Below are positions 720 to 39,147 of a stretch of 40,247 nucleotides of DNA, in pieces. Position 1 is the first letter of the stretch. The number at the start of each line of letters is the position of its first letter. This DNA is from a virus. The position numbers were made by a program, and so were the translations under genes. A model generated the notes under the pieces. The model saw only the letters and a program-made list of their open reading frames with translations. It had not been told where the DNA came from and made no database searches. The stretch lies in IMG/VR virus record IMGVR_UViG_3300031251_000056, positions 1 through 40,247 of that record; one strand, written 5' to 3'.

Positions 720-1436
720 TCAGGACTTGCTAGTACTGAACAGAACGGATTTGCGGCCATTAACGCATAGCCCGCAACGCGCGCAAGCCGAACCTTTATC
801 GCTGATCAGCGGTAAGGCTTTGTTGTTTTCCGGGCAACGCGCGGCATTAGGGAATTCTGCCTTACCGAGTGCAAACGTCGTATCGACATACGCGATATTG
901 ATACCGCGCGACTCTAAGTGGCGCGCCACGTCCACATTGTCGGGATCGGCACTGAAATACAGTGCGAGGTTTTCCAGCTTCTGCGCGTGTAGGAACGTGG
1001 CAGCGGTAGCAACGCGCGTGTAGACCCAAAATTGAGTATCGCTATGAGTTGCGATAACTCGCGCCCATGCCGCAACGTATGTACCGCTGAAAAAATCTCC
1101 GTCCCAGTGGATACGGAAGATTAGTGGCGCGCCACGCTTAACGCTATCGCGCTTAAACTCGCCGATCATACTGTCGAGCATGGTGACCATATCGGCGAGC
1201 GTAGCGTCCCGTAGCGCGTCCCAGTTGCGGGTAAGGACGTTGGCTACACCTTTGTAGATTTTTTCCAGCTTGCCCGCATAGCATATCGTCGCGCAAAAAT
1301 CGGTCTGATCAGTGCATGAGAATCGCTTACCGCTAGGCAAGCCGAACGCGTTAGCGATCAGCGCGGTTTTACCGTTCGGCGATACCGCGCTTGTCACTTT
1401 CCGATCCTTGCTGCGCGTGAGGGTTGCGAGTGTCAT
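720..1436 (-). CDS. GP88-like cysteine-rich phage protein, 238 aa
   Basis: I read this as a member of the phage family known as GP88 (gene product 88), whose function is not established. Supporting features are a Cys cluster near the N-terminus (C41, C48, C52 in CTDQTDFCATICYAG), a central FRIHWDGDFFSGTYVAAW segment (residues 108-124), WVYTR (137-141), and a C-terminal Cys cluster (C201, C218, C221, C224). Seven Cys in two groups suggest bound zinc or an iron-sulfur centre; that is inference. The ATG at 1436 is preceded by ACAGACAGGAACA. An in-frame ATG at 1466 (MNTSTDRNTLM) coincides with the predicted transcription start and could give a 248-aa leaderless form. The family name is from memory of motifs, not a search. 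Confidence 0.7.
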   Translation of the reverse strand: MTLATLTRSKDRKVTSAVSPNGKTALIANAFGLPSGKRFSCTDQTDFCATICYAGKLEKIYKGVANVLTRNWDALRDATLADMVTMLDSMIGEFKRDSVKRGAPLIFRIHWDGDFFSGTYVAAWARVIATHSDTQFWVYTRVATAATFLHAQKLENLALYFSADPDNVDVARHLESRGINIAYVDTTFALGKAEFPNAARCPENNKALPLISDKGSACARCGLCVNGRKSVLFSTSKS

Positions 1437-1441
1437 GAGTG

Positions 1442-1454
1442 TGTTCCTGTCTGT
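1442..1454 (-). repeat. Leftward start-associated repeat, copy 2
   Basis: ACAGACAGGAACA on the minus strand, 5 nt before the ATG at 1436 of the GP88-like gene. Identical to the copy at 2016-2028. Confidence 0.75.
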
Positions 1455-1465
1455 GGACGTGTTCA

Positions 1466-1529
1466 TACCGAGAACCTTACACGCGCCATAAGCTGCGCGT
1501 CCCATCATTACGGTGTGATCTAGCTCACA
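1466..1529 (-). promoter_or_regulatory. CRP-site-containing promoter of the GP88-like gene
   Basis: On the minus strand the palindrome TGTGAGCTAGATCACA (1514-1529) fits the CRP/FNR consensus TGTGA-N6-TCACA on both half-sites. Its centre is 55.5 bp from the A of an ATG at 1466. A -10-like hexamer TAAGGT (1474-1479) within GTGTAAGGTTCTCGGTATGA ends 7 nt before that ATG, which would place the transcription start on or next to the A. I see no -35 hexamer at the usual distance, as expected of an activator-dependent promoter. The same parts at the same spacing occur at 2390-2453. Confidence 0.6.
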
Positions 1530-1548
1530 CTCACCAGGCGAGCGTACC

Positions 1549-1707
1549 CTAACCTTCCCTACCAAAATAATCGGGTTCGGCGTGCAACGCTCGGCGCGCC
1601 ACGTAGTCGCGAGCGTCGGCCATATCCTGGCGGCCATGCTCGGCGCGCCTACGGTCTCGTGACTCGCTGTAGGTTGACTCGCTGTAGCGATCGATCGGAT
1701 TACTCAT
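1549..1707 (-). CDS. Hypothetical charged protein, 52 aa
   Basis: A very hydrophilic peptide beginning MSNPIDRYSESTYSESRDRR, made mostly of Arg, Asp, Glu, Ser and Ala, probably disordered or a single helix. I do not recognise it. The ATG at 1707 follows CTAGACAGGAACA (1713-1725), the repeated ribosome-binding motif, with a 5-nt gap. Upstream of that is a run of CCAA units. It overlaps the CRP-promoter intergenic region only at its 3' side and ends 19 bp before the CRP-like palindrome, so the downstream GP88-like gene has its own promoter. Confidence 0.6.
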   Translation of the reverse strand: MSNPIDRYSESTYSESRDRRRAEHGRQDMADARDYVARRALHAEPDYFGREG

Positions 1708-4670: not shown

Positions 4671-5020
4671 TGGCCGCGCCTTTGACGTTTGAGGTTACGG
4701 TCAATTCGGCGCAGGTTCAGGTTCAGGTTCAGTCTCCCCAGGTGGCTGTTGCTCCTAGTGCTGGTGCGACGATGATTATTGCGGCGACTCCTGGTTTGCA
4801 GGGTTTGCAGGGTCCGCAGGGGCCGTCTGGCTCGGGGGTGTTGTTTACGCAGGCTTCTGCTGCTGCTACGTGGACGATTAACCATTCGTTGGGTCGGTTG
4901 CCGGCTGCGGTGAATGTGGTGGTTGGTGGTCAGGTTGTTGATGCCGATGTGTCGGTGAGTACGTCCCAGATTGTTGTCGTGTTCGCCAGCCCGCAGTCGG
5001 GCCAGGTTGAGTACATCTAA
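4670..5020 (+). CDS. Short collagen-like tail fibre protein, 116 aa
   Basis: The N-terminal half contains alternating hydrophobic strands (QVQVQVQSPQVAVAP), followed by GLQGLQGPQGPSG (about residues 44-56), a short Gly-X-Y collagen-like hinge, then a compact beta domain (WTINHSLGRLPAAVNVVVGG up to the C-terminus) of a type often found at the ends of phage fibres. This order is typical of trimeric fibre subunits. I start at ATG 4670, giving a TGATG junction with the previous stop; a GTG at 4667 is an alternative. It begins the fibre cassette inserted between the small and large terminase genes. Confidence 0.65.
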   Translation: MAAPLTFEVTVNSAQVQVQVQSPQVAVAPSAGATMIIAATPGLQGLQGPQGPSGSGVLFTQASAAATWTINHSLGRLPAAVNVVVGGQVVDADVSVSTSQIVVVFASPQSGQVEYI

Positions 5021-5851: not shown

Positions 5852-7414
5852 ATGGCCCGCAAGCTACTTGGCACGGCCCCTTCGGGCACTACTGATGCCG
5901 CTACTAAGGGCTATGTCGATACTGCTGTAGCGGGCGTTTCGGGCGGCTTCTCGGTGGCAGCCCCGACTGGGACTGTCTCTACCGACCAGGCCGCGATCCA
6001 GACGAAGGTTAACGCTGCGGCGTCGGCTGGCGGCGGCGTGGTGGTGTTGCAACCGGGCATCTACGCTGTCACGTCGGCGAACCGCACTGATGCCGGCGTG
6101 AGCTACACGGGTTCGCTGACCTGGACTGATACGCATGTTGTGTCGGGTGACGTGGGTTCTTACGTCATTGGGGCGAATATCAATGGGCGTGCGCCCAAGA
6201 TCGTGTCGGTGACTGCCGGCACGAGCTTCGTAACGGACATTGCCCCTGGCGGGACGGTCTCGTCGGCATCGATGATTATTACCAAGCCGGGTATCGATCT
6301 GCCGGATGGGGTGACCATTCAGGGGGCTGGTGCGGCGACGGGTAACGTCACTAGCGGGGTTATGACCGGCGGCACGACTGTCTTCGATAATGGCACGGGC
6401 TGCACGGTCTTCCAGCGCGGCGGCAATAACGAGGCTGCGTATTTCTCTCGCGGTGGCGTTGTGGGTATGACAATCCAGGGTGCTTCAACTTATGGAAGTA
6501 TCGGTTCCACGTTTGCCGGCATCTGGATTAACAACAATGCGAGCTACTTCAAAATCTGGGATTGCGAGATCACGGGTCACCTGACCTGGGGCTTGGGCCT
6601 GGACTACAACATCAATAGCTTGGATTGCCGCAATACGGGCTTCACCTACAGCGGCAACTCGACTTCCACCAGCCCGACTGGCGGCGTGGGCGTGTCTGTT
6701 TTCAACGGCTTCGCTTCCGCTGCGGTTAACTTGTACAACTGCTGGGGTTACCATCTGTACGGCTTTTTCGTCACCCCGGTGAACGGGCAGGCGTCGATGG
6801 TGATTCAGTCCTGCCAGTGGAACGTCATCTTGACGAGCAATTCCTATCTGTCTGGGTCTGGTATTTGTGTCACGGGGCCGAACAGCGTGCTGATCGACTG
6901 CTGGTCGGAAACCTGCCAGGGCTACGACGTTATTGTCGGATACGCTTTCTGTAGCGTCATTGGCGGCAACTTTATCGGTGGGGGTACGGGCGCGTTTCAG
7001 ATGGCTGGGTCTAATTCGATCCTGAACCTTCAGGGTGTTGCGACGGGTAACCACTCTGTGTGTGTGACGTTGGGTAGCGGCATCGTGTCGTGGACTAACT
7101 GCAATGTTGGTGAAGCGACGTTTATCAGTGGTGTGGCGACCCCGGCGCAGGCTGCTGGCGTGGGATCGACTGCTGGTATGACAGGGCCAGGTGGCGCAAT
7201 GGCTAGCCAGGCGTATGTCAATGCCACTGCCGGGGGCGGCCTGTACCTCGACACTGACAACATGTATGAGCTTGCGAGCGCCGGCAGTGGACCGATTGTG
7301 TCGGGTTCGGTGAATGGGACGGCGACTGCGTTGATTTTGTGGACTGGTACGGCGGCGCAGTATGCGGCTATTGGGTCGAAGAACTCCAGTACGATCTATT
7401 GTGTGACGCCGTAA
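5852..7414 (+). CDS. Tailspike-like protein with right-handed beta-helix, 520 aa
   Basis: The N-terminus (MARKLLGTAPSGTTDAATKG, YVD) is a fibre-type attachment module shared with the gene upstream. From about residue 45 (STDQAAIQTKVNAAASAGGG, VVVLQPGIYAV) it has the entry motif of pectin-lyase-like right-handed beta-helices: a set of indices, then a Gly-rich turn and PGxY. Residues 100-420 show repeating Asn/Gly-rich short strands consistent with helix rungs (IWDCEITGHLTWGLGLDYN). Such proteins bind or cleave surface polysaccharide; I can see no definite catalytic triad. Shine-Dalgarno AGGAG at 5838-5842. Confidence 0.75.
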   Translation: MARKLLGTAPSGTTDAATKGYVDTAVAGVSGGFSVAAPTGTVSTDQAAIQTKVNAAASAGGGVVVLQPGIYAVTSANRTDAGVSYTGSLTWTDTHVVSGDVGSYVIGANINGRAPKIVSVTAGTSFVTDIAPGGTVSSASMIITKPGIDLPDGVTIQGAGAATGNVTSGVMTGGTTVFDNGTGCTVFQRGGNNEAAYFSRGGVVGMTIQGASTYGSIGSTFAGIWINNNASYFKIWDCEITGHLTWGLGLDYNINSLDCRNTGFTYSGNSTSTSPTGGVGVSVFNGFASAAVNLYNCWGYHLYGFFVTPVNGQASMVIQSCQWNVILTSNSYLSGSGICVTGPNSVLIDCWSETCQGYDVIVGYAFCSVIGGNFIGGGTGAFQMAGSNSILNLQGVATGNHSVCVTLGSGIVSWTNCNVGEATFISGVATPAQAAGVGSTAGMTGPGGAMASQAYVNATAGGGLYLDTDNMYELASAGSGPIVSGSVNGTATALILWTGTAAQYAAIGSKNSSTIYCVTP

Positions 7415-19577: not shown

Positions 19578-19957
19578 GGGAAGCGGTCGCGTGGGTGACG
19601 TTGTTCCCGAAGGAGATTGAAGTTGATCTCCTTCGGGATGGTTTCGACATCCATGATTGGCATCGGGGGACGATGTCGAGCCGGCGGCTGCTGCTTTTGA
19701 TAGACACCTTGCATGATAAGTCTGAGTTCAGGCGGGCGCTCCGTAAGGGCGACTGGTCTGACGAGGAGTACATCAATGCTGGCGTGCTGAATGAGTTGAA
19801 GTTGATGCGTGTCGATCAGGCGTCGATTAACGGTCAGGATATGCCGTACCAGTTGTTGGAGTCTCCTGCTCAGATTGCGGAGAGCGCGCGGGTTGCGGAA
19901 GAGCGTCGGGCTGTTCGTTCGGACATTTTGCGCCAGTTGCATGGCGGTTCACAATAG
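19095..19957 (+). CDS. Tail assembly chaperone, -1 frameshift extended form, about 287 aa
   Basis: Predicted join of 19095-19574 with 19574-19957. After codons CCA-AAA at C-CCA-AAA (19568-19574) a -1 slip gives ATA AGG GAA GCG GTC GCG TGG, then the downstream frame (GTG ACG TTG TTC CCG AAG GAG). The product is 160 residues, then IREAVAW, then 120 residues, with no stop in between. The second part contains MSSRRLLLLIDTLHDKSEFR and DWSDEEYINAGVLNELKLMR, as in gpGT-type chaperones. This frameshift is conserved in dsDNA tailed phages. The frequency cannot be told from sequence. Confidence 0.8.
19568..19574 (+). promoter_or_regulatory. Programmed -1 ribosomal frameshift site CCCAAAA
   Basis: C CCA AAA fits X XXY YYZ in the chaperone frame, one codon before the TAA at 19575-19577. 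The -1 frame is open for 127 codons. Downstream GC-rich sequence could stimulate pausing. Confidence 0.8.
19595..19957 (+). CDS. Second tail-chaperone reading frame (gpT-like), 120 aa if started at GTG
   Basis: Open frame running from the region of the slippery site to 19957. Its own GTG at 19595 has no convincing Shine-Dalgarno, and the frame is open upstream to CCCAAAA, so it is best read as the C-terminal part of the frameshift fusion and not as an independent gene. Content is charged and helical (VDLLRDGFDIHDWHRG, AQIAESARVAEERRAVRSDI). It ends 16 bp before the tape-measure start. Confidence 0.5.
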   Translation: MTLFPKEIEVDLLRDGFDIHDWHRGTMSSRRLLLLIDTLHDKSEFRRALRKGDWSDEEYINAGVLNELKLMRVDQASINGQDMPYQLLESPAQIAESARVAEERRAVRSDILRQLHGGSQ

Positions 19958-19973
19958 AATACTTGGAGGGCTA

Positions 19974-22900
19974 ATGGCTGCCGAAAAAGGGATTTTCCTT
20001 GACGTTCTGCCGAGGATGGATATGGCCGCTCTGGCTCTCATCCTTCAGAAGGTTGAGGGTGTATTCAAGAAGAGCGGCTCGGCTATTGGCGCTTCGTTTG
20101 GTAAAGAGGCTGAGGCCCGTATTCTGGCGACTGCCCAGGCTACTGAGCGTGCTTCTACGATTGCTACTGATGCGTATCTGCGTCAGACGAAGGCTGCTCA
20201 CGATGTTGAGGTGGCTGAGAAGCGTTTGCAGGAGGTCCGCGATACGGGCACTGCTAAGGCTTCTACGATGCTGCGGGCCGAGAATGCGGTGTCGGATGCC
20301 CGCCTGGTGGCGACGGCCCGTACTCGCGATTACGAGACGGCAAACCGGAATGCCGCTACTGCGGTGGAGAAGCACACCACGGCTATCCAGAACTCTGCTG
20401 TCACGGCGTCTAACGCTGGTCGCGCTTTCAATGTGGCCGGGTTGGCGATCACGGGTGGCCTGGTTGTTGGCATGGGTGTGGCGATCAAGTCTGCCGGGGA
20501 TTTCCAGCAGAATCTGACGAAGTTGCAGACGGCTGCGGGGGAGACTGCCGCCAATATCAAGGTTGTGTCTGACGGCATTTTGAAGATGGCCGGCGATGTG
20601 GGTATTGGTGCGAATCAGCTTTCTCAGTCGATGTACTTCATTGAGTCTGCCGGTAAGCACGGCCAGGAGGGGTTGGATGTTCTGAAGTCTGCCGCGCAGG
20701 GCGCGAAGCTTGAGAACGTCGATCTGGATACTGTGGTTAAGGCGTTGACGACTACGCTGAATGACTACGGCGATAAGCTGGGTTCGCCGGCTGACGCGAT
20801 GTCGAAGATCGTGAAGGCGTCTTCGTTCGCGAAGGTCAACCTGGGCGAGTTCACTGGCGCTTTGCACAACATTGAGCCGCAGGCTGCCGCGTTGGGTATC
20901 AAGTTTGAGGACATGGCTGCTTCGTTGGGCATGGTTACTCGTTCGGGTGAGGGCGCGGATCAGGCGTCGGAGAACCTTCGTAACGTGTTGATGCATTTGC
21001 AGACTGCTACGAATCCGATGACGAACGAGTTGGCGGCGTTCGGGATTAACTCTCAGAAGCTTTCCGATGAGTTGAAAGAGCGCGGCCTGGGCGGGTCGAT
21101 CAACTACATTGCGGACACGATTGCGAACAAGTTTGGCCCCGAGTTGAAGGGGCAGATTCCGATCATCAACCAGAACGTGTTGGCGATGAAGTCTGCCGAT
21201 GATGCGTTCTCGGCGATGGCCGATGGCCCGATGAAGGACTTGGCTCAGCGGTATAAAGATAATCAGATTGGTCTTAAAGAGTTCCGTAAGGAAGCTCAAG
21301 GGTTTGCCGATGGCGATCAGGGTAACCTGGCGAAGCAGTGGGTGGCGTTGGAGAACACTGCGCGCGGTTTCTCCGGTCAGATCAAGGCCGGCAAGGGCGA
21401 TGTCCAGAACTATGAGCAGGCGATGGCGCAGGCTTTCGGTTCGATGACTGCTTATCAGGCGGCGTTGCAGCTTTCGGGCACTCACCAGGAGGAGTGGACT
21501 AAGGCGGTCAAGGAGACTTCTCAGGCTCAGGCTGATGCTGCTGGCAATGTGCAGGGCACGGCTGATGTGAGTAAGAATCTGAATCAGCAGATCGCCGATA
21601 TGAAGGCTGCGTTCGGCGCGGTTGGTATTGAGTTGGGCCAGGTGTTGGTCCCGGTGATGACTGTGGTTGCCAGGGGTTTGTCTGATGTGGGCAAGTTCAT
21701 GGTGGATAACAAGGGTGTTGCTTACACGCTTGTGGGTGCTTTGGCGGCGATCTCGACAACGTGGTTGACGATGAAGGCCGTGATGATGGGCAAGGAGTTG
21801 TGGGACTTCCTGAAGACCAGTTACACCTGGTTGAAGACCACTCTTGCTGAGACCACTGTTGCGTCGGATGCGGCGAATACGTCGATGGGTCCGCAGCGCG
21901 CTGCTGCTGCTCAAGAGGGTGCGACAGCCGTGGATGCTGCGGCAACGGAGGAGGTCGCTGCTGAGGAGCGTGTGGCGACTCAGGCGGGCGAGACTGATGC
22001 GGCTTTGGCTGCGGGTGCTGGTGCTGGCGCTGGTGCCGGGGCTGGTGCTGGTGCGGCTGCTCTGCTGCCGGGTGCTGCGCGTCTGCTCGGACCAACGGCG
22101 GCTGTCGCGGCTACGCCCGATACGGTAACGCCTACTGGAACGGATTCCAGCGGTAACCCGATCCTGCCGTCAGATAACCAGCCGTGGTATAAGCGGGCGC
22201 TGGGGTTTGGCACTGGCGGTGTCATTCCCGGTTACTCGCATACCGATGATCGGGTGGGGCATATCCCTGGTCACGGTTTGATCGGTTTGGCCGGCGGTGA
22301 GGGCATCATCAATGCCAGCGCGACCCGCAAGCTGGGTGCCGGGTTCATCCACGCCTTGAATGGTTTTGATTCGGGTGGCATCACCCCCGGTGGGGGTGGC
22401 GGTCAGGGCTATGGCCCCGACGTGTTGATTGCCCGCATGCTGGAGGGCACCCCGTATAGCCAGGGTAAGCGTAATGACTGCTCGGGCATGGTGGGGCAGA
22501 TCATCAACTCCACGCTTGGTGGCGGCGGTGGTTTGCCGACGACTAAGAACATGGGTTCGTGGCTGTCTGAGCGCGGCTTTAAGACGGGTATCGGCGGTAA
22601 GGGCACGATCTCGGTTGGCTGGTATAACCACGGCAACGGGACGAATGACGGCCATGCTGCGATGACGTTGTCTGACGGCGAGAACGCCGAGTCGGGTGGC
22701 TCGCACGGGAACTTCCTTGTGGGTGCCGGCGCGGCTGGCGCTTCGTCTGCGGAGTTCGATCACCACATGTATCTGCCGTCGATCTATGGCGAGGGCCAGG
22801 GCGGCAGCGGCGGCTACGGCGGCAGCGGTGGCTCGGGTGGCGGGGGTGGCTTCGGCGGCTCCGGTGGTTCTGGCGGTTCGGGTAGTTCACCGGGCACGGC

Positions 22901-24578
22901 GAATCCTTTGGATGCGCTGTCGGGTGGTTTCACCATCCCGAACATTGCGAAGATGTTCACTGAGCTTCTCGCGAATCTGGCGCTCGGTAATCCCATTGGG
23001 AAGATCGCGGCGGCGCAGCGGGGCGGCAGCGGTGGTGGGCCTTTGATGCCTAACGATCCGCAGTTCGCTACGACGATGGATGCGTCTGCGTCTGCGTTGT
23101 CGAACTACACCGATGAGCAGTTGAAGTCTTTGGACGCCCAGTTGAAGTCGGAGGAGTCGGCTCGCCGGGTCACGACTGATCAGGGCAAGCTGGACAGTGC
23201 GATCAGTAAGCATGGGGAGGGTTCTTCCCAGGCTGACGCGGCGCAGAACACGTTGACGAGGGCGCAGCAGTCTCAGGCTGCGTTGGCGCAGAAGCAGCAG
23301 GACAATGCGGTCAACACTAGCGGTAAGTTGGTGGCTGATCAGGCTCGTCTGGCGCAGGAGCAGGCTAAGGGTTCTAAGGCTTCGGTGATTGCGAGTACTC
23401 AGGCGAAGATCGCCCAGGATCAGATCAATGCTTCGGCGGCGGCTTCTGCTCCTGGCGCTAATCCTGGTTTGGATGCTCCTGATTTGTCGTGGACGCATGA
23501 CTTCACGGGCGGCGGCGGTCAGTCTCCGGTGTTTAAGCGGGATGGCGGTGCCGGGGGTTCCTTCGGCGGCGGTTCTGGCGACATCACGGGCACTATATCG
23601 CGGCTGGCGGGTTTGTCCGGTCGCGGTTGGGGCCGGGATGCTACCGGTACGACTAGCGGGTTGCATGGCTCTATCGCTGGTATCAGTGGTTCTGTTCATG
23701 CTCATCCGGCGTTGGGTTCGCTCAGCGGCGGCGGCGGCGGTCTGATGATTCCCGGGGTTGGTGGCAGCGCCGGTACGGTTGGCCGTCGCGGGCTTGCCGG
23801 TACAGGTGTCGGGGCTGGTGTTTACGGTTCTGTTGCTGGGCATAATCCGCTGGCTGTGAGTGGTTCTGCTACTGCTGATGCTTCCCGCTATATGGGGGGC
23901 CAGGGCGGGCATAACGGGCCGCATGGCGGCTACCACGATCAGCAGATGGGCAATCGTGCTGTCACGGGTGCGGCGAACGCTAGTGCCGGCGCGGCGGGTC
24001 TCGCTTCGGCGGGTAAGGCCGCCGCAGTGGGTAGCTCTAACGCTGGCGCTTTGTCTCAGCAGCCTACGGGCGGCACGGGCAAGGGCGGCGGCATCTCTGG
24101 CGGGCTTTTGGGAAGTGCGGAAAGCGCAGCCTCTCAGGCTATCGGTGCGGGCGTCAATATGATGGCCCCCGGCGCTGGCGCTGCCGCTTCTGCGGCTACC
24201 GACATTATGACCCAGGAAGCTAACCGGGCTGTCGGCTACGCCGGCCAGGTGGCTGGTATCGCGGCGAGTGGACTGCTGGAATCGTTCACGTTGCACGGTG
24301 CCGGTAACAACATCGGTCAGGGGTGGCTTGGGAAGATCGCTGGCGGTCTCGCGGGCGCTCATCCCAGCACTCCGAATGCTGCCGGTGCGTCTAAGCCGTT
24401 GGAGAAGAAGGATGGCGGCAACGATCCCAACAAGATGGGTCATTCCGGCAAGACCGGCCCTGACGGTAAACCGGCTCCGATGGTTCATATCGAAAATCAG
24501 CATGTCCATAACGGTGACGGTCAGTCTGCTGGTAAGGACATTGCTCGTCAGATGATGGCGGTCGCGCCGGGATTTTAA
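19974..24578 (+). CDS. Tape measure protein with embedded NlpC/P60-like peptidase, 1534 aa
   Basis: Sets tail length, about 0.15 nm per residue, hence roughly 230 nm. Domains: N-terminal coiled-coil (residues 20-140), hydrophobic segment with GGLVVGMG (about 152-172), phage minor-tail core (QNLTKLQTAAGETAANIKVV to about 560), second hydrophobic stretch (about 582-606, VAYTLVGALAAISTTWLTMK), Ala/Gly run (about 679-700), then a peptidase-like module with DCSGMVG (C836) and GHAAM (H894) that would cut peptidoglycan peptides, Gly/Ser linkers (about 943-972), another coiled-coil and a low-complexity Gly-rich C-terminus. I start at ATG 19974 after GGAGGG; a frame open to 19809 overlaps the chaperone and lacks a ribosome-binding site. 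Confidence 0.88.
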   Translation: MAAEKGIFLDVLPRMDMAALALILQKVEGVFKKSGSAIGASFGKEAEARILATAQATERASTIATDAYLRQTKAAHDVEVAEKRLQEVRDTGTAKASTMLRAENAVSDARLVATARTRDYETANRNAATAVEKHTTAIQNSAVTASNAGRAFNVAGLAITGGLVVGMGVAIKSAGDFQQNLTKLQTAAGETAANIKVVSDGILKMAGDVGIGANQLSQSMYFIESAGKHGQEGLDVLKSAAQGAKLENVDLDTVVKALTTTLNDYGDKLGSPADAMSKIVKASSFAKVNLGEFTGALHNIEPQAAALGIKFEDMAASLGMVTRSGEGADQASENLRNVLMHLQTATNPMTNELAAFGINSQKLSDELKERGLGGSINYIADTIANKFGPELKGQIPIINQNVLAMKSADDAFSAMADGPMKDLAQRYKDNQIGLKEFRKEAQGFADGDQGNLAKQWVALENTARGFSGQIKAGKGDVQNYEQAMAQAFGSMTAYQAALQLSGTHQEEWTKAVKETSQAQADAAGNVQGTADVSKNLNQQIADMKAAFGAVGIELGQVLVPVMTVVARGLSDVGKFMVDNKGVAYTLVGALAAISTTWLTMKAVMMGKELWDFLKTSYTWLKTTLAETTVASDAANTSMGPQRAAAAQEGATAVDAAATEEVAAEERVATQAGETDAALAAGAGAGAGAGAGAGAAALLPGAARLLGPTAAVAATPDTVTPTGTDSSGNPILPSDNQPWYKRALGFGTGGVIPGYSHTDDRVGHIPGHGLIGLAGGEGIINASATRKLGAGFIHALNGFDSGGITPGGGGGQGYGPDVLIARMLEGTPYSQGKRNDCSGMVGQIINSTLGGGGGLPTTKNMGSWLSERGFKTGIGGKGTISVGWYNHGNGTNDGHAAMTLSDGENAESGGSHGNFLVGAGAAGASSAEFDHHMYLPSIYGEGQGGSGGYGGSGGSGGGGGFGGSGGSGGSGSSPGTANPLDALSGGFTIPNIAKMFTELLANLALGNPIGKIAAAQRGGSGGGPLMPNDPQFATTMDASASALSNYTDEQLKSLDAQLKSEESARRVTTDQGKLDSAISKHGEGSSQADAAQNTLTRAQQSQAALAQKQQDNAVNTSGKLVADQARLAQEQAKGSKASVIASTQAKIAQDQINASAAASAPGANPGLDAPDLSWTHDFTGGGGQSPVFKRDGGAGGSFGGGSGDITGTISRLAGLSGRGWGRDATGTTSGLHGSIAGISGSVHAHPALGSLSGGGGGLMIPGVGGSAGTVGRRGLAGTGVGAGVYGSVAGHNPLAVSGSATADASRYMGGQGGHNGPHGGYHDQQMGNRAVTGAANASAGAAGLASAGKAAAVGSSNAGALSQQPTGGTGKGGGISGGLLGSAESAASQAIGAGVNMMAPGAGAAASAATDIMTQEANRAVGYAGQVAGIAASGLLESFTLHGAGNNIGQGWLGKIAGGLAGAHPSTPNAAGASKPLEKKDGGNDPNKMGHSGKTGPDGKPAPMVHIENQHVHNGDGQSAGKDIARQMMAVAPGF

Positions 24579-24611: not shown

Positions 24612-27284
24612 ATGGGCTACTCATATAGGACTTCCGCTCCGCGTGTTTCCTTTTTCTATGCGTGCGGTACGTCCTATTTGATCGACCTGTTCGGTATCGG
24701 CTATAGCACCATTGGCGGCGGGAATAACTTCTATATTCCCGGCGTCAATGGTGGGTCGGCGACTTGGGATGGCGCTCCTAAGAACGATCCGTTCCCGTCG
24801 ATGCTGGACCCCACGCTTTTTGATGCGAAGAAGATCACCCCGTTCGCGGATGCGCTGTTCCCGATGAAGGACTCGGTGACTCAGGGTGTGGCGTCCACGA
24901 TTGCGATGATCAAGGCGACACCGGGTCCGTTCTGTCTGGGCGGCTATAGCCAGGGCGCGATGGTGATGAGCCAGGTGTATAACGAAATCCGGTCTGGCAG
25001 TTTGACTGCTAGGGCGTCGGATTTCTTGGGTGCGGTCACTTTCGGTAATCCTTTCCGCGAGATCAACCACACCTGGCCTGGCTCGACGTGGAGCGGCTCG
25101 TGGGATGCGCCGGGTTCCACGTCGGGTGGGCACGGCTGCTTCCCTTCCACGTATCGCCTCTCGGGCACCGAGGCCAAGTGGTGGGACTTCGCGAACGTCA
25201 ACGACATCATCACGGCGGTAAGCGATACCACGGCGGGCGTGGGTGAGCAGAATCTGGTGGGACTCCTTACGGAGTACTGGGATGGCATCAGCATGACATC
25301 CTTCCTCACCACCTATTTCGCCACCGCAGGGTTTCCGAACTTGGCGTCGGCACAGGCTCAAATCTCATCGATTGTGACGGCTGTCGCGGGTGGTGGCGGT
25401 GGGCACGTAACGTACCCCATCGCCCCGCCGCCGGGGAATCCGCAGAATGGTCTCACCTCGTATCAGATTGCGTTGAACTATCTGCACTCTTTGGCGCTGT
25501 CGTGGAGGGCGAACAATAACCGTCCTGGCGTGAATGGGCCGGCGCGCTGTTTCCCGCCTGGGCAGATTTCTCTGCTGGGCGAGAACCTTCTCGTGCAGAA
25601 CACCACGCCCCATATCACGTATGTGGGGCATGAGCAGACACCGTTCTACATTGCCGGACCTTTGGCTCCGACGCCGGGGGCGCAGAACGGCATCTCGGCG
25701 TTGAGCATTTCGGGTTTGACGCCGCCGTTCCAGCATGTGGATAACCAGGGCGCTCGGCAGGATGGCATCACTTATCTGGATTCGGTGTATGACCCTGCGG
25801 AGATCGATGTGCAGGTTGAGGCTTCGGGCCTTACTGCGAACGATATGCGCGATGTTATGCGTAGCTGGATCGGCGCTAGTGATGCGAAGCGTCAGGGTCG
25901 GTTGAGTGTGTTCACTCCCGATAACGGGGAGTGGTGGGCGAAGGTCCGCGAGTTGAAGACGTTCACTGATCCGATCACGCAGTCCGGTTCGGTGCCGGGT
26001 ACGCAGCGGTTCACTTGGGCGTGGCGTAACGATGACGCTTTCTGGCAGTCTTTCGATTCGGTTGCGACGTTCCAGTTGGGTTTGCAGACCGTGTCTGACA
26101 CGTTCACCGGCTCGGCCAATACGACGTTGGGGGCGAACTGGACGCAAACCTATTCGGGTGCCGGCGGTGCCGGCGTGTGCGGTTTGACTGGTAACGGCAA
26201 CGCTAACTGGCAGCCTTCCGGGTCTGCTGCCCGCCAGGTGATCAACCGCCATAACACGACTTCGACTACGGACAATCAGGTTGTGTCGGTGCAGTTCGCC
26301 GCCCCGGTTGGTTTCGACCTGCTGGGTGGTGTCTATATCGACATCTTGGCGCGGATGAACTCGACTTCCACTGACTACATTCGCGCCCGTATCGGCGGCA
26401 ATGGCGTGCTGAATACGATCACGCTGAGCAGCTTCATTGGTGGCGCGGAGACGGTGCTGTGGTGGCAGCCGCTGCTGATCCCTCCGGTGTGGAATGAGAC
26501 GTGGACGCTGATTTGTGGCACCACTAATGGTGCGAGGAATTTCAAGATTCAGCGCGGCGACTATCTGGCGGTGGGTCCGGTCCTGAGTTCTCTCGGGGTG
26601 ACGATTGGCGGCACTGTCACGGTGGTTGATTTCACCGAGAAGGGCACGCAGTCAGGTTTGGGTTCTACCCATCGCGGGTGGGGCTGGGGCATGGCGGCGG
26701 GACCGGGCATTCTTCCCCCGTATCTGGATCAGGTGCCGCCCCCGAATATCGAACTGTGGGCTGCTGGGGATAACACGGGTGTGTCGCAGAACGGGTTTCT
26801 TCCGCTGGTGAACCGTGGCGATCAGGACGGGTGGCCTAGGTATCTGCTGTACGGGCCGGGGACGTTCACGCTCTCGGATGGGCCTGCCCATACGGGCGGC
26901 AACACGGTTACGTTCGGGCCGCTGCTGGAGGGCCAGGTCGCGATGCTTACTACGCTGCCACGGCTGAGGGGGGTTGTTGACTTGTCCCCGAATCAGCCGG
27001 CGCAGACGAGCAACATCTTCCAGTCGCTGATGAGTGAGTTGGTTTCGTTCGCGACGAACAACAATGTGCCGCCGCTACTGGAGCAGTTTGAGTCGGTGTT
27101 TGGCATTCTTCCTCCGCAGGGCAATATGTATTCGCTGCTGAACGGTCGGTTTACCACTCCGGTGCCGCCTAAGTTTGATAGCCAGCCCCCGGTTGTGTCG
27201 AACATTGCTGTGTCGATTGCGAACGGTAATGCCAGTTCGAAGGTTGTCGCTGCTCTTACTCCGCAACGCAGATGGCCGCTCTAA
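24612..27284 (+). CDS. Tail-tip protein: N-terminal lysin-B-like esterase fused to distal-tail domain, 890 aa
   Basis: Residues 1-~305 reproduce the lysin B (mycolyl-ester hydrolase, cutinase-like alpha/beta) fold: FFYACGT, nucleophile elbow GGYSQGA (S113), LGAVTFGNP, VNDII (D198) and GGGGHVTYP (H265), then a terminal helix (YQIALNYLHSLALSWRANNN). The same blocks occur in order in the lysin B at 38098, including TFGNP-R-E and the Ser-Asp-His triad, so both look active. Residues ~345-490 match distal-tail proteins (ISALSISGLTPPFQHVDNQG, SGLTANDMRDVMRSWIG, FTPDNGEWWAKVRELKTFTD), followed by a lectin-like beta region (about 495-690). Likely role: hydrolysing mycomembrane esters during entry while forming the tail tip. 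Confidence 0.85.
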   Translation: MGYSYRTSAPRVSFFYACGTSYLIDLFGIGYSTIGGGNNFYIPGVNGGSATWDGAPKNDPFPSMLDPTLFDAKKITPFADALFPMKDSVTQGVASTIAMIKATPGPFCLGGYSQGAMVMSQVYNEIRSGSLTARASDFLGAVTFGNPFREINHTWPGSTWSGSWDAPGSTSGGHGCFPSTYRLSGTEAKWWDFANVNDIITAVSDTTAGVGEQNLVGLLTEYWDGISMTSFLTTYFATAGFPNLASAQAQISSIVTAVAGGGGGHVTYPIAPPPGNPQNGLTSYQIALNYLHSLALSWRANNNRPGVNGPARCFPPGQISLLGENLLVQNTTPHITYVGHEQTPFYIAGPLAPTPGAQNGISALSISGLTPPFQHVDNQGARQDGITYLDSVYDPAEIDVQVEASGLTANDMRDVMRSWIGASDAKRQGRLSVFTPDNGEWWAKVRELKTFTDPITQSGSVPGTQRFTWAWRNDDAFWQSFDSVATFQLGLQTVSDTFTGSANTTLGANWTQTYSGAGGAGVCGLTGNGNANWQPSGSAARQVINRHNTTSTTDNQVVSVQFAAPVGFDLLGGVYIDILARMNSTSTDYIRARIGGNGVLNTITLSSFIGGAETVLWWQPLLIPPVWNETWTLICGTTNGARNFKIQRGDYLAVGPVLSSLGVTIGGTVTVVDFTEKGTQSGLGSTHRGWGWGMAAGPGILPPYLDQVPPPNIELWAAGDNTGVSQNGFLPLVNRGDQDGWPRYLLYGPGTFTLSDGPAHTGGNTVTFGPLLEGQVAMLTTLPRLRGVVDLSPNQPAQTSNIFQSLMSELVSFATNNNVPPLLEQFESVFGILPPQGNMYSLLNGRFTTPVPPKFDSQPPVVSNIAVSIANGNASSKVVAALTPQRRWPL

Positions 27285-28951
27285 CGGTTGAACAGCAGGA
27301 TGCTTTCCAGGCTGCCCTTAACTCTACGGGTCGGCAGGCGGCTTCTGCTGCTCAAATGTATACGGCGATGTCGAAGGACTTCCCTCCGCAGTGCATCGTC
27401 ACCTTGTACTCCAACATGTACTCGCCGCAGGGCGAGGTCGGAGACTACATAGAGGTTACCTGCGAGTTCCCCAAGAACGAGATTGAGACGGCAACCATTG
27501 TTATGAAGACCAGCGATCCGCTGGCTTCTCTGGCAATGACGTGCTATCAGTCGGTGGTTCCGGTCACGATTGATATTGGCGCTATGCGCTGGTCTGGCCG
27601 AGTCGATAACTTCGACTACGCAATGGTCAAGGGCGTTAAGACTTTGACGTTGCAGTGCATGGGCGACTATGCCTGGTTCTCCAAAATCCTGGTATGGCCG
27701 AACTTTCTCGCACCGGTTCAGGCGCAATTCCCGAACCGGGCCGTGTTTATCGGACCTGCTATCACTTGCGTGAAGACCATGATTATGGAGCAGTGCTTCC
27801 GGCTCCAATCTGGGCTGTGGGAGTTCACCAATAATCTGCTGTCTGGCAACTTGGATTGGGAAGCATGGTTCGGGACGTTGCTGGAAAGCGACGGCAACCC
27901 GATTGACATGTTGATGACCCCGATTGTGGTGGTCCCGACTGATCCGATTTTCGATACGTCGCCGTGGATTTCCATGAATGGCCGTATGGATCAGATCAGC
28001 ACATTGGTTGAAGAGGTTGTGAAGTCGAACGGCCTCATCTTGTCGGCGAATGTGTGGCTTCCTGGCGATCCCCAGCCGGCTGGTTTGTTAATTCCGTTGA
28101 AGCTCCCGACGATTGTGGTTGATGTTAAGAACCGCAGCGGGGTTACGGGGCCGACTGGCACGTTTGTCGATGGCCTTATCACCGACTTGGTTGATATTCA
28201 GTCGAGTGTGTTGGGGGATGTGCTTTCGCCGTTCCTCAATTCCGGTAATGAGTATGCACCGGAGGGTGTGAATATCGCCCCGCTTATCGGTGTGGACTTT
28301 GTGAAGCCGTGGGTGTTGTTTCAGGATCATCCTCGTGGTGGTTTGACTGAGTTCCATTTGTACGGGCATCACCCGTTGGCCCACACGATCATCGGCGGCG
28401 GCAAGAGTCCCAAATGGGTAAATGACCTGATCAACGCCACTTTTGAGTGGATGATTGACGCGATCACTATCGCCATTGGTGTCACTGGTGTGCCTTCCAC
28501 ATTGCTGGATGGAACATTTGACGATGTGCTATTAGCATTCCAGTTGATTGAGAACTTCCAGCGGCGTGTGAAGTTGGGTCCGTATGGCTGGCCGGAAATG
28601 TTTGTTCAGACCGGCGCGTCTGCGTACACATTGGATGAGTGGTTCGCCCTCCAGGGCGCTATGTGGGATAGTCGCGGCTATCACTGCATTAAGTTGTCTT
28701 TCGACAACGGGTTCCCTTACACGCTTGGGAAAGACCTGTTCGTTGGGGGGTTGGCGTCTTTCGCTTTGGATGGCGTCTTGTACACCGATTATCTTGATCG
28801 GGTTCTCTTTAAGGACGACCGGAAGACGCGGTCTCAGATTGAATGCACTATCGGTGATGGTAAGCGTGCGATGAATCCGATTACGAAGACCTTGAATAGG
28901 TTGACGAAGCTGCAAGAGGCTGTGCAGATCATCACGATGAGTTCTAACTAA
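27272..28951 (+). CDS. Minor tail protein, tail-tip hub (Gp37-like), 559 aa
   Basis: Starts ATG at 27272, overlapping the previous gene by 13 bp. Residues 30-200 (CIVTLYSNMYSPQGEVGDYI, FPKNEIETATIVMKTSDPLA, SVVPVTIDIGAMRWSGRVDN, FDYAMVKGVKTLTLQCMGDY) match the first hub domain of baseplate-type proteins in actinophages (ReqiPepy6 Gp37-like group). C-terminal residues (IECTIGDGKRAMNPITKTLN, then RLTKLQEAVQIITMSSN) fit the same family. Such proteins form the tail-tip hub with the distal-tail protein, consistent with gene order. A perfect-looking long hairpin follows the stop. Confidence 0.75.
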   Translation: MAALTVEQQDAFQAALNSTGRQAASAAQMYTAMSKDFPPQCIVTLYSNMYSPQGEVGDYIEVTCEFPKNEIETATIVMKTSDPLASLAMTCYQSVVPVTIDIGAMRWSGRVDNFDYAMVKGVKTLTLQCMGDYAWFSKILVWPNFLAPVQAQFPNRAVFIGPAITCVKTMIMEQCFRLQSGLWEFTNNLLSGNLDWEAWFGTLLESDGNPIDMLMTPIVVVPTDPIFDTSPWISMNGRMDQISTLVEEVVKSNGLILSANVWLPGDPQPAGLLIPLKLPTIVVDVKNRSGVTGPTGTFVDGLITDLVDIQSSVLGDVLSPFLNSGNEYAPEGVNIAPLIGVDFVKPWVLFQDHPRGGLTEFHLYGHHPLAHTIIGGGKSPKWVNDLINATFEWMIDAITIAIGVTGVPSTLLDGTFDDVLLAFQLIENFQRRVKLGPYGWPEMFVQTGASAYTLDEWFALQGAMWDSRGYHCIKLSFDNGFPYTLGKDLFVGGLASFALDGVLYTDYLDRVLFKDDRKTRSQIECTIGDGKRAMNPITKTLNRLTKLQEAVQIITMSSN

Positions 28952-35417: not shown

Positions 35418-36170
35418 ATGAAGCTGGGGAAGAAACCTGCACGGCCAGGGGCTGTGAAGCTGCAACTATCCGACTACTTGGATACTTCTGCGCTACCGAC
35501 GTTGCCAGATAAGTTTGGGCGGGAGAATCTCGTCCCGCATTGGGGGATGCTGGGCAACGATACGGTGGGGGATTGCGCTATCGCCGGCCCGTACCACGAG
35601 ACGATGCTGTGGAACGCCGAGGCTAACCGCCGGATCGATGTCAGTGACGCCGTGGTGCTGCAAACCTACTCGGATGTCACCGGTTACAACCCGGCTGACC
35701 CGTCTACCGATCAGGGAACCGATGTGTCGGTGATGGCGGCGTACCGCCGCAACCACGGCATCGTGGACGCTAACGGCAAGGTTCACAAGATCGGCGCTTA
35801 TGTGTCGCTGACACCTGGCGACCTGACTGAACTGTGGTATGCGCTGTACCTGTTCGACGGCATCGGCATTGGTGTCAAGTTCCCGCAGGAGTGGATGGCT
35901 GCTTTCCGTTACGGCTCGCCGTGGGGTGCGGTCCAGAATCCGACCATTGAGGGCGGCCATTACGTTTCGGGTGTCGGCAAGCACAACGGCGGCATGCTCG
36001 GCGTGGTCACCTGGGGGAAAGTCCAGTGGATGACTCCCGGCGGCTATCAGCAGTTCAACGATGAGACCTACGCCTACCTGACCGAAGAGAAGCTGATCAA
36101 CGGCAAGGACGATCATGGTCTGAATCTGTCGAAGTTGCGGGATGATCTCGTGGCGGTGACTCAGGCGTGA
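35418..36170 (+). CDS. C39/papain-like cysteine peptidase, accessory lysin, 250 aa
   Basis: The N-terminus MKLGKKPARPGAVKLQLSDY and HWGMLGNDTVGDCAIAGPYH (C53 as nucleophile) followed by ETMLWNAE, and GGHYVSGVG (H181), define the Cys-His pair of a C39-like fold; a third acidic or Asn residue is likely near W199-K201. Similar proteins are common beside lysin A in actinobacteriophages and are called protease C39-type lysin A parts. It overlaps lysin A by 4 bp (GTGA). No signal peptide, so it would need the holin to reach peptidoglycan. Activity is inferred. Confidence 0.75.
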   Translation: MKLGKKPARPGAVKLQLSDYLDTSALPTLPDKFGRENLVPHWGMLGNDTVGDCAIAGPYHETMLWNAEANRRIDVSDAVVLQTYSDVTGYNPADPSTDQGTDVSVMAAYRRNHGIVDANGKVHKIGAYVSLTPGDLTELWYALYLFDGIGIGVKFPQEWMAAFRYGSPWGAVQNPTIEGGHYVSGVGKHNGGMLGVVTWGKVQWMTPGGYQQFNDETYAYLTEEKLINGKDDHGLNLSKLRDDLVAVTQA

Positions 36171-37705
36171 TCACCCAGGCCAACGTCCAGTACATGTGGA
36201 CACAGGTCATCAATCCACGGGTGGGTGACCCGTATGTGTGGGGCGGGGTGCTAGACCCGTCAGACCCTACTAAGGGCACAGATTGTTCGGGTGCTGTCGG
36301 CTATGCCGTGCTGGCGCTGCTGTACGGCCCGCAGATGCAGTGGGCTAACCGCCCGTTCTGGACGGGGAGCTTCGCCGGGTTGACGCCCGGTCAGACTGGT
36401 CCGCTCGGGCTGGTGTGTATCGCTTCTCCGCAGGATGCGCCGGCTGATGCGGCGATGGTGGTCGCTATCGACCAGGGGCCGACTGCCGACTCGTCGCACA
36501 TGGTGTGCAACGTGATGGGGACGGGGATTGAGTCGAACGGTAATCGTGGCTTGGTGACTGGCGGGAACGCCACTCCGGTCACGTCGCCGATGTTCAATCA
36601 GTGGTTCTATCTTCCTGGCCCGGTCTCGGCTTCGGGTGGGGACACGTTGTTCGCTGATGTGTCGGAGTTCCAGATGTCGGTGGATGACAGCTACCCGTAT
36701 GAGGTGTTGTCGATCAGGGTGTGTGACGGCACCTATCAGGATCACCACTTCGCGCAGAACTATGCCTGGATGCGGAAGGCTTTGGATGATGGCCGGCTGA
36801 CGATGGGCATCGTCTACTCCTATGTGCGGACTAACGCCGATCAGACCGCCGCCACTGTCAAGTCGATGATCGACGCGAATGGCGGTTTGCATCCCAAGGT
36901 GGTGTTGATGCTCGACGTGGAGTCGGGCGGCAATCCTGCCGGGGACGGCTCTTCGTGGGTTGATGCTTTGTACACCGATCTGGTGGCTTATGCGGGTGAC
37001 CCTCGACGGGTGATCGGCTACGGCAACAAGGGTGACCTCAATTCGATCTGGTTGACGAAGCCGAGTGGTATCCGGCTGATCGTGGCTGGGTACGGTTCGG
37101 ACCCTCATTATCCCGGCGAGATCGCCCACCAGTACACCGATGGCGGTGGTTATGGTGGCGGGCTGCCCGAGGGGTGTAGTCCGTTTGGTAATTGCGACAT
37201 GAATAGCGCGGACGGTTTGTCCCCGCAAGATTTCGCCGCTGCGTGCGGCATCACTACAGGCACTGGAGGTTTCCTGGTGGCGCTTACAGACGCCCAGCAG
37301 CAGGAGTTGTACGACAAGGTCACCGGTATGTGGGCATCGCGTTCAGCTTTCCGGCATGTCGGCGAGGGGGTTATCGATGACACGGTCGGTATCGAACTGA
37401 ATGAGGACGGCAACGTCCATGTCATTGAGACGATTGTGTTGGCGTGGGTCGGCTGGCCTGGCTCCCTGGCTCTACTGAGCGAGGTCGCTAACGCTGATCT
37501 AGTGAAGTTCCCTGAGCGGAAGAATGACGCCGCTTTGGCGAAGCTGGTTTTGAAGAAGTTGGGCGATCCGGTTGCCGCCCCGGTCGCTGCTCCGGTAGTC
37601 GCTGCTCCGGTTGTTGATCCCGCCCCGGCTGCGCCGGCTGCGTCGATCAATTGGTTCAACGTCATCGCGGACGTTGTGAAGTTTCTATCCCAGAAGGGGA
37701 AGTAA
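36167..37705 (+). CDS. lysA: Lysin A: NlpC/P60-like peptidase plus GH25-like muramidase, 512 aa
   Basis: Main endolysin. Residues 1-~150: NlpC/P60-like peptidase with GTDCSGAVGYAV (C40) and DSSHMVCNV (H111). Residues ~160-350: GH25-type (lysozyme-like) barrel beginning FADVSEFQ (D164), with VVLMLDVESG (D250/E252) and GNCDMN (D344), the acidic residues expected of that family. Residues ~375-512: C-terminal region with an AP-rich hinge (PVAAPVAAPVVAAPVVDPAP), probably cell-wall binding. The two domains together cut both stem peptide and glycan. GTG start; next gene begins immediately after the stop. No signal peptide. Confidence 0.88.
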   Translation: MITQANVQYMWTQVINPRVGDPYVWGGVLDPSDPTKGTDCSGAVGYAVLALLYGPQMQWANRPFWTGSFAGLTPGQTGPLGLVCIASPQDAPADAAMVVAIDQGPTADSSHMVCNVMGTGIESNGNRGLVTGGNATPVTSPMFNQWFYLPGPVSASGGDTLFADVSEFQMSVDDSYPYEVLSIRVCDGTYQDHHFAQNYAWMRKALDDGRLTMGIVYSYVRTNADQTAATVKSMIDANGGLHPKVVLMLDVESGGNPAGDGSSWVDALYTDLVAYAGDPRRVIGYGNKGDLNSIWLTKPSGIRLIVAGYGSDPHYPGEIAHQYTDGGGYGGGLPEGCSPFGNCDMNSADGLSPQDFAAACGITTGTGGFLVALTDAQQQELYDKVTGMWASRSAFRHVGEGVIDDTVGIELNEDGNVHVIETIVLAWVGWPGSLALLSEVANADLVKFPERKNDAALAKLVLKKLGDPVAAPVAAPVVAAPVVDPAPAAPAASINWFNVIADVVKFLSQKGK

Positions 37706-38101
37706 ATGACTGCACCGACACCCGATGTGGATGTGGACAACGCGCTCAACGGCGTCCAGGTTGATGGTTCTTTTCGACCGTGGGCGTGGGTGCATGTTCG
37801 CGCCCGTACCGTGTTCGGCAGCTTGTCGAAGCAGATTCCGTTCTGGCGGGAAATTAACGGCCAGAAGGTTGCTTCGACGCCGTCCACGTTGGATCAGATC
37901 ATTGGCACGGCTGAGCAGACCGCTTGGCGTTATGTCGCCAGCGACGGCAACGTGTATGACCTGAAGGACACCGTGCTGCTGCTGCTGGAGTCCCTCTTGG
38001 AGACTGCGGGGCCGGTGAAGGTTGCGGAGCTTCAGGCGAAGGCATCTACTCTGCGGGCGTGGCCGGCGAGCTATCCTGGCGCAGCGCCGTTTGAGCGATG
38101 A
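37706..38101 (+). CDS. Hypothetical protein between lysin A and lysin B, 131 aa
   Basis: Begins MTAPTPDVDVDNALNGVQVD, then GSFRPWAWVHVRARTVFGSL, and has a C-terminal helical part (YDLKDTVLLLLESLLETAGP) followed by RAWPASYPGAAPFER. I do not recognise the family. No signal, transmembrane segment or catalytic motif. Its location, overlapping lysin B by 4 bp and abutting lysin A, suggests a lysis-related job such as a lysin partner or regulator, but this is guesswork. Confidence 0.65.
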   Translation: MTAPTPDVDVDNALNGVQVDGSFRPWAWVHVRARTVFGSLSKQIPFWREINGQKVASTPSTLDQIIGTAEQTAWRYVASDGNVYDLKDTVLLLLESLLETAGPVKVAELQAKASTLRAWPASYPGAAPFER

Positions 38102-39147
38102 TCAGCCGCTGGCGTGAGATTCGGGCGGCGCTCAACGGTGAGGTGTACGTCCCGCCATCCACAGTGTTGTACACCGTGTGTGGCACGGGTGTGCCGTGGA
38201 ATGTCGGCTACCCGTTCGACTTGGGCGACCAGCTAGAGACTGAGGGGATCGTTCAGCACCAGCCTATCGGTTATCGGGCGACGGCGTTCCCGATGCAGCC
38301 GTCCATCAATGAGGGTGAGGCTGAGCTTGCCCGCCAGATACTGCTGCGCGACCCGGTTACACCGTGGATGATGGCGGGCTATTCGCAGGGTGCCATCATC
38401 ACGTCGAACATCTATGACCGGGTGCGTAACGGCGATCTGCAAGCCTATCGGGCTTCGTTCCTGGCCGGTGTGACGTTCGGCAATCCCCGCAGGGAGCAGG
38501 GGCACACCCTACCCGGCGGCACCGATCCTGGCGGTCATGGGATTGTCACACCCAATCTTGTCGGCAGCGAATTGTTTTGGCTTGACTTCGCCGCCGGAAA
38601 GCATATGCCGGGTTCGCCCGGTAACGATCTGTACACAACGTGTGGGGCCGGTGAATCCGCTGATGCGGTGGCCGACCAGGAAGCGATCTGGAAGATTGTC
38701 GATAAGGGCACCATCTCCAGCACCTTCGACCTTGTCAAAAGGGTCGTGGAAATCCTTCCCAGCCCGCTGAAGGGCGGCATCGCTGCCGCCGAGGCGGCGC
38801 TGGGTGCGCTCGGGTTCTTCGTCGCCGAGGGAATCAGACCGCACACCAGCTACCAGTTCATCCAGCCGATCCCCAACGATCCTCGCGATTGTTGGCGGCT
38901 GGCGCTCGACTATCTCCGCGCTATCGCGCTCAACCAAAGGAACAACACTGTGACTACTCCCGAACCCGCTCCCGCCGCTCTCGCCCTTGACCTTGGGTCG
39001 CTGAAGGGTGAACTGAAGACTGCGGTGAGCGGCCTTCTTGATGGCCTGAAGTTTGTGCAGAAGTTTTCGCACCTGATCCCCAATCCTTACGCCGGCCAGA
39101 TTGACAGCGCCGTGAAGGTTCTCACGTTCATCGACGGCCTGCTCTAG
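38098..39147 (+). CDS. lysB: Lysin B, mycolyl-ester hydrolase, 349 aa
   Basis: Serine esterase that releases mycolic acids from arabinogalactan so that the outer membrane detaches at lysis. The fold markers are YTVCGTG (25-31), the nucleophile elbow AGYSQGA (S96), GVTFGNP (124-130), NDLYT (D177) and GIRPHTSYQF (H249), i.e. a complete Ser-Asp-His triad, followed by the terminal helix WRLALDYLRAIALNQRNN (266-283). A ~65-residue C-terminal helix-rich tail follows. ATG overlaps the previous stop. It has a close relative in the N-terminus of the tail protein at 24612. Confidence 0.88.
   Translation: MISRWREIRAALNGEVYVPPSTVLYTVCGTGVPWNVGYPFDLGDQLETEGIVQHQPIGYRATAFPMQPSINEGEAELARQILLRDPVTPWMMAGYSQGAIITSNIYDRVRNGDLQAYRASFLAGVTFGNPRREQGHTLPGGTDPGGHGIVTPNLVGSELFWLDFAAGKHMPGSPGNDLYTTCGAGESADAVADQEAIWKIVDKGTISSTFDLVKRVVEILPSPLKGGIAAAEAALGALGFFVAEGIRPHTSYQFIQPIPNDPRDCWRLALDYLRAIALNQRNNTVTTPEPAPAALALDLGSLKGELKTAVSGLLDGLKFVQKFSHLIPNPYAGQIDSAVKVLTFIDGLL

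Follow-up and report, generated by a model that had tools for sequence, protein, structure and literature searches.

A lysin B-type domain at the front of a distal tail protein: a possible virion-borne esterase for crossing the mycolic-acid outer membrane

Lysin B (LysB) cleaves the ester between mycolate and arabinogalactan at lysis (PMC6116005). Little is known of how infecting mycobacteriophages cross the mycolic-acid outer membrane (PMC3314691), and as of 2006 no enzyme acting on mycolic acids had been identified in a virion (PMC1796659). What, then, is a LysB-type domain doing outside the lysis cassette, between the tape measure and the baseplate hub, in a phage of mycobacteria-like bacteria that encodes a separate lysB in the cassette itself? 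The question is raised by a 40,247-base IMG/VR virus record, classed as linear and possibly incomplete, the whole of which we refer to here as the window. The answer we favor, to which we give a probability of a little over 0.6, is that the distal tail protein (Dit) of this phage bears an N-terminal serine esterase of the LysB type and would act as a virion-associated mycolyl-ester hydrolase at entry.

Gene order in the window is typical of siphophages: terminase, portal, protease, capsid, major tail protein, tape measure, fusion ORF, hub, minor tail proteins, lysin A and lysin B (Table 1). The fusion ORF begins with ATG and continues for its whole length without an internal stop, so that enzyme domain and structural tail protein lie within a single reading frame; the true start of the tape measure protein before it is probably inside the listed ORF. 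Because a separate lysB stands in the cassette and the fusion stands in the tail module, we speak of a ‘LysB-type domain’ rather than of ‘a lysin B gene’. The cassette enzyme groups with the lysin B of Moostard/Aegeus. At the left end of the window (720-1637, minus strand) there is a GP88 family protein (PF17338, phrog_1392), and a 520-aa protein at 5852-7414 has a short C-terminal ‘Phage tail tip’ motif (PF24243), yet is encoded upstream of the terminase.

Table 1. Positions of the fusion gene, its parts and the genes discussed with it, in window coordinates
Feature	Position	Strand	Basis
Major tail protein	17982		
Tape measure protein, directly 5' of fusion gene	19809..24578	+	PF10145 9e-24; phrog_2723 1e-150
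Fusion gene, LysB domain plus distal tail protein	24612..27284	+	890 aa; Pfam and PHROG matches
LysB (mycolyl-esterase-like) domain, residues 1-310	24612..25541	+	phrog_102, 3hc7 profile, AF2, Foldseek
Codon S113, predicted nucleophile, GYSQG	24948..24950	+	alignment, AF2
Codon D198, predicted acid, NDII	25203..25205	+	invariant 14/14
Codon H265, predicted base, GHVTY	25404..25406	+	invariant 14/14
Predicted distal tail protein (Dit), residues 311-890	25542..27284	+	phrog_106; profile and Foldseek matches
Lectin-like insertion in Dit, DUF7257, residues 470-722	26019..26777	+	PF23918 3.7e-42; 9n6a E 3.7e-16
Baseplate hub protein (Gp37-like)	27272..28951	+	PF14594 3e-35; Bxb1 gp25 ‘Baseplate hub’ 6.8e-15; Douge gp18 9.7e-8
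Lysin A (endolysin), lysis cassette	36167..37705	+	phrog_6707/317
Canonical stand-alone lysin B, lysis cassette	38098..39147	+	phrog_102 1e-61; 3hc7 E 2.9e-17

The original prediction, made from the letters of the DNA, held that residues 1 to ~305 resemble lysin B and retain a complete Ser-Asp-His triad, and alignment confirms this. The phrog_102 family (LysB/‘endolysin’) matches residues 76-295 (E 5.1e-32), and BLASTP finds 30% identity (E 2e-25) to the lysin B at 38098, whose own triad residues, S96, D177 and H249, fall in the same blocks, also as foreseen. S113, D198 and H265 are where they were said to be, and align with those of all the LysBs compared. In an alignment of 14 sequences—six tail-fused domains and eight stand-alone LysBs—the serine is kept in 13, the sole exception being a glycine in the tail-fused domain of phage G003 (locus L003); the only further departure among 33 aligned sequences is Glu for Asp in the stand-alone lysB of phage G004. 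A LysB-family profile finds the lysin B of phage D29 (3HC7) at E 1.4e-49, with the same blocks aligned.

Pfam scores this part of the protein below the gathering cut-off, as Cutinase and PE-PPE, and so it takes phage-specific profiles to see the LysB domain; a general annotation would pass over the enzyme. The fusion protein has no match in NCBIfam, and no peptidoglycan-hydrolase domain was found in it with Pfam, PHROG or NCBIfam. Its predicted target is a lipid ester, not peptidoglycan; that this is the mycolyl-arabinogalactan ester we assume from the family to which the sequence belongs.

When residues 1-310 are modeled with AlphaFold2, the result agrees: an alpha/beta-hydrolase (pLDDT 79, pTM 0.83) in which S113 is flanked by strand 107-112 and helix 114-128, the arrangement that a nucleophile elbow would have. 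The closest predicted viral structures in Foldseek are lysin Bs of Mycobacterium, Rhodococcus and Gordonia phages, and the closest solved structures among the matches listed are Rv3802c, MSMEG_6394 and a cutinase-like protein, at modest TM-scores of 0.42-0.47. D29 3hc7 is not among the best 50 PDB matches of the model, though the sequence profile finds it. D29 lysin B (gp12, PDB 3HC7; phrog_102), a mycolylarabinogalactan esterase, is like the fusion domain a cutinase-like alpha/beta-hydrolase, with the same block order and triad. It belongs to a lysis cassette, however, whereas the gene for the fusion domain stands in the tail module and makes it one piece with a structural protein. The fusion domain also belongs to a separate clade with loops of its own: a DPFP block near residue 59, an HTWPGS.WSG.WD loop, and a NPQNGLTSYQIALNYL helix.

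The rest of the protein, where a distal-tail partner had been proposed, is by its models and profiles a predicted Dit with a lectin-like insertion; we identify it as such because its profile and fold matches are to baseplate proteins and the next gene encodes the baseplate hub. The phrog_106 family (minor tail protein) matches residues 315-889 at E 7.3e-69. A profile of 17 Dit relatives matches the receptor-binding domain of TM4 gp23 over the DUF7257 insertion (3.7e-16), and also the Bxb1 tail-tip cage gp23 (6e-4) and Douge gp17, ‘Distal tail protein’ (0.004). Foldseek matches of the Dit model are to baseplate proteins of Douge, Bxb1, p2 and NF5, and to CBM66 and the J-1 evolved-Dit CBM2; they cover parts of the fold, and whole-chain TM-scores are low. 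The two halves were modeled separately and their models carry no mutual orientation. With Douge gp17 and the evolved Dit of lactobacillus phage J-1, the latter equipped with carbohydrate-binding modules, the window protein shares the Dit fold and an accessory, lectin-like insertion; its N-terminal accessory domain, in contrast, is a LysB-family enzyme and not a carbohydrate-binding module.

The junction between the halves is clean. Unfused Dit relatives begin a few residues before a YPPG motif (YPPGQVSLLG in L030), and in the window a linker of about twelve residues separates the corresponding FPPG (CFPPGQISLLG) from the LysB helix. The complete N-terminus of the Dit thus comes right behind the LysB domain, a whole LysB having been placed before a whole Dit. 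At the same attachment place a close Dit relative, L032, has a different N-terminal extension of ~80 residues (4755-5000), which suggests that the Dit N-terminus is a site of repeated attachment. Omega gp35 (probably our L055; 661 aa, the first gene 3' of the tape measure) is probably a homolog of the Dit part. In virion mass spectrometry gp35 is abundant and well covered (PMC3706429).

Is the window fusion one of a kind? The same kind of fusion was sought in other tail genes, and LysB domains were found in tail proteins of at least six further IMG/VR phages. In two of these, G001 (L001) and G018 (L045), the domain is clearly N-terminal to the hub protein (phrog_110, PF14594), the homolog of the window's hub gene; in G004 (L009) it occupies the same gene position but the gene is cut by the contig end, and this is probably a hub fusion as well. 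Tail proteins of the phrog_2840 family carry it in G002 (L002) and in G003, and in G023 it lies inside a 1,114-residue protein resembling a central fiber (phrog_346/356/416). The window domain is ~33-49% identical to those of these relatives that are included in the 14-sequence alignment, and the triad is intact in six of the seven domains, its own included. LysB is found on the Dit in none of the 31 loci with a relative of the window Dit, and on the next gene in three; since most Dit relatives do without it, LysB on the Dit is not generally needed for entry.

A separate, stand-alone lysB is also present in G001, G004, G018 and G023. The view that two copies in one genome are unusual therefore stands in part: the pairing is absent from sequenced isolates as searched, but it is not unique, at least four other uncultivated phages having both. 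G003 has two further LysB ORFs. One of its ORFs (L014 1393-3105; 570 residues) joins an N-terminal LysB to ~300 residues that look by eye like a glycoside hydrolase, and it adjoins another LysB ORF (L018 1405-2625). In the G002 tail protein (L002 4375-6000) the LysB core is immediately preceded by a beta-lactamase-like domain (PF00144, phrog_382) whose SxxK motif is apparently lost (GITF).

Five of the seven tail-type domains fall into one clade (100/99; 100/97 in a second tree) that spans three partner protein families; the domains of G004 and G023, both long-branched, are placed close to it. Monophyly of the first six tail-fused domains was not rejected (p 0.25). That of the three hub-fused domains was (p 0.0026), which is consistent with movement between partner genes, and from these trees the ‘tail-type LysB’ appears to be a module that moves among baseplate proteins. 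Origin by recent duplication of the phage's own lysB was rejected both for the window (AU p 2e-66) and for G001 (p 4e-8).

Cultivated phages look different. Against 50,697 phage records the window domain matched 1,672 at E 0.01, one place per record, and the genes at the best 60 matches, and at 60 more spread evenly to E 10, were lysin Bs, LysB-type endolysins or evident mislabels, mostly 23-36% identical. With the domains of L001, L003, L009 and G023 as tblastn queries too, no record was matched in more than one place at E 0.01, and among the genes listed in the collection (~50,700 records) no tail fusion was seen. The lone oddity is Orf15 of Gordonia phage GRU3 (L083 9064-9912), a stand-alone LysB with a full triad that is annotated ‘putative structural protein’ and closes the tail gene block of this 17.7-kb phage. 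Three RefSeq records (NC_051627.1, NC_042332.1 and NC_051622.1) label their LysB genes ‘DNA helicase’, evidently in error; GenBank MF324911.1 (SirPhilip) has lysin B. Two scans of bacterial genomes with short peptide patterns found no such prophage, though distant members could escape patterns of this kind, and plasmids searched for tail-type LysB yielded none. The tail-type LysB thus appears to live in uncultivated phages. Reviews of mycobacteriophages and recent papers on their structure confine LysB to lysis or mention no such tail enzyme; subscription journals and preprints were thinly covered, and an earlier report is possible. That these domains make up a distinct lineage, shuffled among ring, hub and fiber proteins in the baseplates of uncultivated mycolata phages, opening the outer membrane at entry and representing the first virion-borne mycolyl esterase, is a broader proposition, and one toward which we lean by a narrow measure.

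What else might such a domain be for? It could be a binding module, the LysB fold having been co-opted for recognition of mycolates or arabinogalactan on the host surface, while catalysis would be of lesser weight or could be spared. This is the main rival of the entry esterase, and we think it unlikely without dismissing it. Glycan-binding domains abound in mycobacteriophage baseplates (PMC13033339), a lectin-like insertion is already present in the window Dit, and enzyme folds do become tail adhesins, if the beta-lactamase-like domain of G002 is a guide; in G003, moreover, the LysB domain has itself lost the nucleophile. Binding alone does not require a triad, however, and Ser, Asp and His have all been kept in the six other tail-fused domains across deep divergence.

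Alternatively, a virion-borne esterase might serve mainly for release, as influenza neuraminidase does, by detaching progeny from debris rich in mycolates or by completing lysis from the outer side. When LysB is mutated in Ms6 and Giles, virions stay trapped in cells that have lysed poorly (PMC6116005), and fusion holds the enzyme on the particle, but the same genomes retain a soluble LysB for release, and ring, hub and fiber proteins are where the baseplate contacts the host; we consider this very unlikely. That the fusion is an artefact or a passive joining, either an assembly chimera or a functionless read-through of two genes after loss of a stop codon, is hardly credible. The window is a metagenomic record in single copy, and translation of an unfused Dit could begin at the in-frame GTG at 25530; with its GGAGG 21 nt upstream, this GTG makes a poor internal start. 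Against this, the tail-type domains are a clade of their own in the tree, separate from the lysis LysBs, the composition of the window domain is like that of its neighbors (GC 0.59 versus 0.60, GC3 0.73 versus 0.72), and LysB domains occur inside several different tail genes in separately assembled contigs, a recurrence that makes a chimera unlikely and largely refutes it.

Envelope-degrading domains fused to tail proteins are not new in themselves. Virion-associated lysins, of which the peptidoglycan hydrolase motif in the TM4 tape measure is an example, are built in this way, but they cut peptidoglycan, whereas the window fusion would cut the mycolic-acid outer membrane. Minor tail proteins of the Omega gp39/phrog_382 kind (beta-lactamase/D-Ala-D-Ala-carboxypeptidase-like) likewise place a serine-hydrolase fold in an actinophage tail, although the fold is unrelated to LysB and the presumed target different. 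Omega gp39 is present in virions (PMC3706429). In the window, an NlpC/P60-like pattern (DCSG...H) occurs both in the tape measure protein (19809-24578, residues ~869-985) and at the N-terminus of lysin A (36167-36640); phrog_10780, a tape measure family, matches both segments, and Pfam has no match to the one in the tape measure. If this pattern is real, both lysis activities would have a counterpart in the virion.

How might the entry esterase work? We infer its activity, its place in the virion and its action and timing at entry, and propose the following. The Dit would form a hexameric ring, bringing about six copies of the esterase to the baseplate; the Dit ring of Douge is known to be hexameric. 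Hexameric Dits and trimeric hubs are also known from Claus, Corndog and Mysterious (PMC13252515), and this stoichiometry would give some six esterase copies per virion. Once the baseplate has docked onto the outer membrane of the mycobacterial host, the esterases would hydrolyze mycolic acid-arabinogalactan esters, or other mycolyl or lipid esters, and loosen the mycomembrane locally beneath it, giving passage to the tape measure channel and the DNA. In cryo-ET of Douge during ejection, the DTP-BHP-BppU core is seen resting on the outer membrane, and where the two meet there is a hole of ~3.7 nm (PMC13033339); an esterase on the Dit ring would sit at that point. The separate lysB at 38098 would serve for exit.

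If we read the locus correctly, a LysB fused to the baseplate would offer a concrete and testable mechanism for crossing the mycolic-acid outer membrane. Baseplates of these phages would evolve, in part, by the movement of one enzyme module between ring, hub and fiber proteins. And the tail-type LysB would be a lineage shaped for action from outside the cell, the same direction from which LysB is applied in practice.
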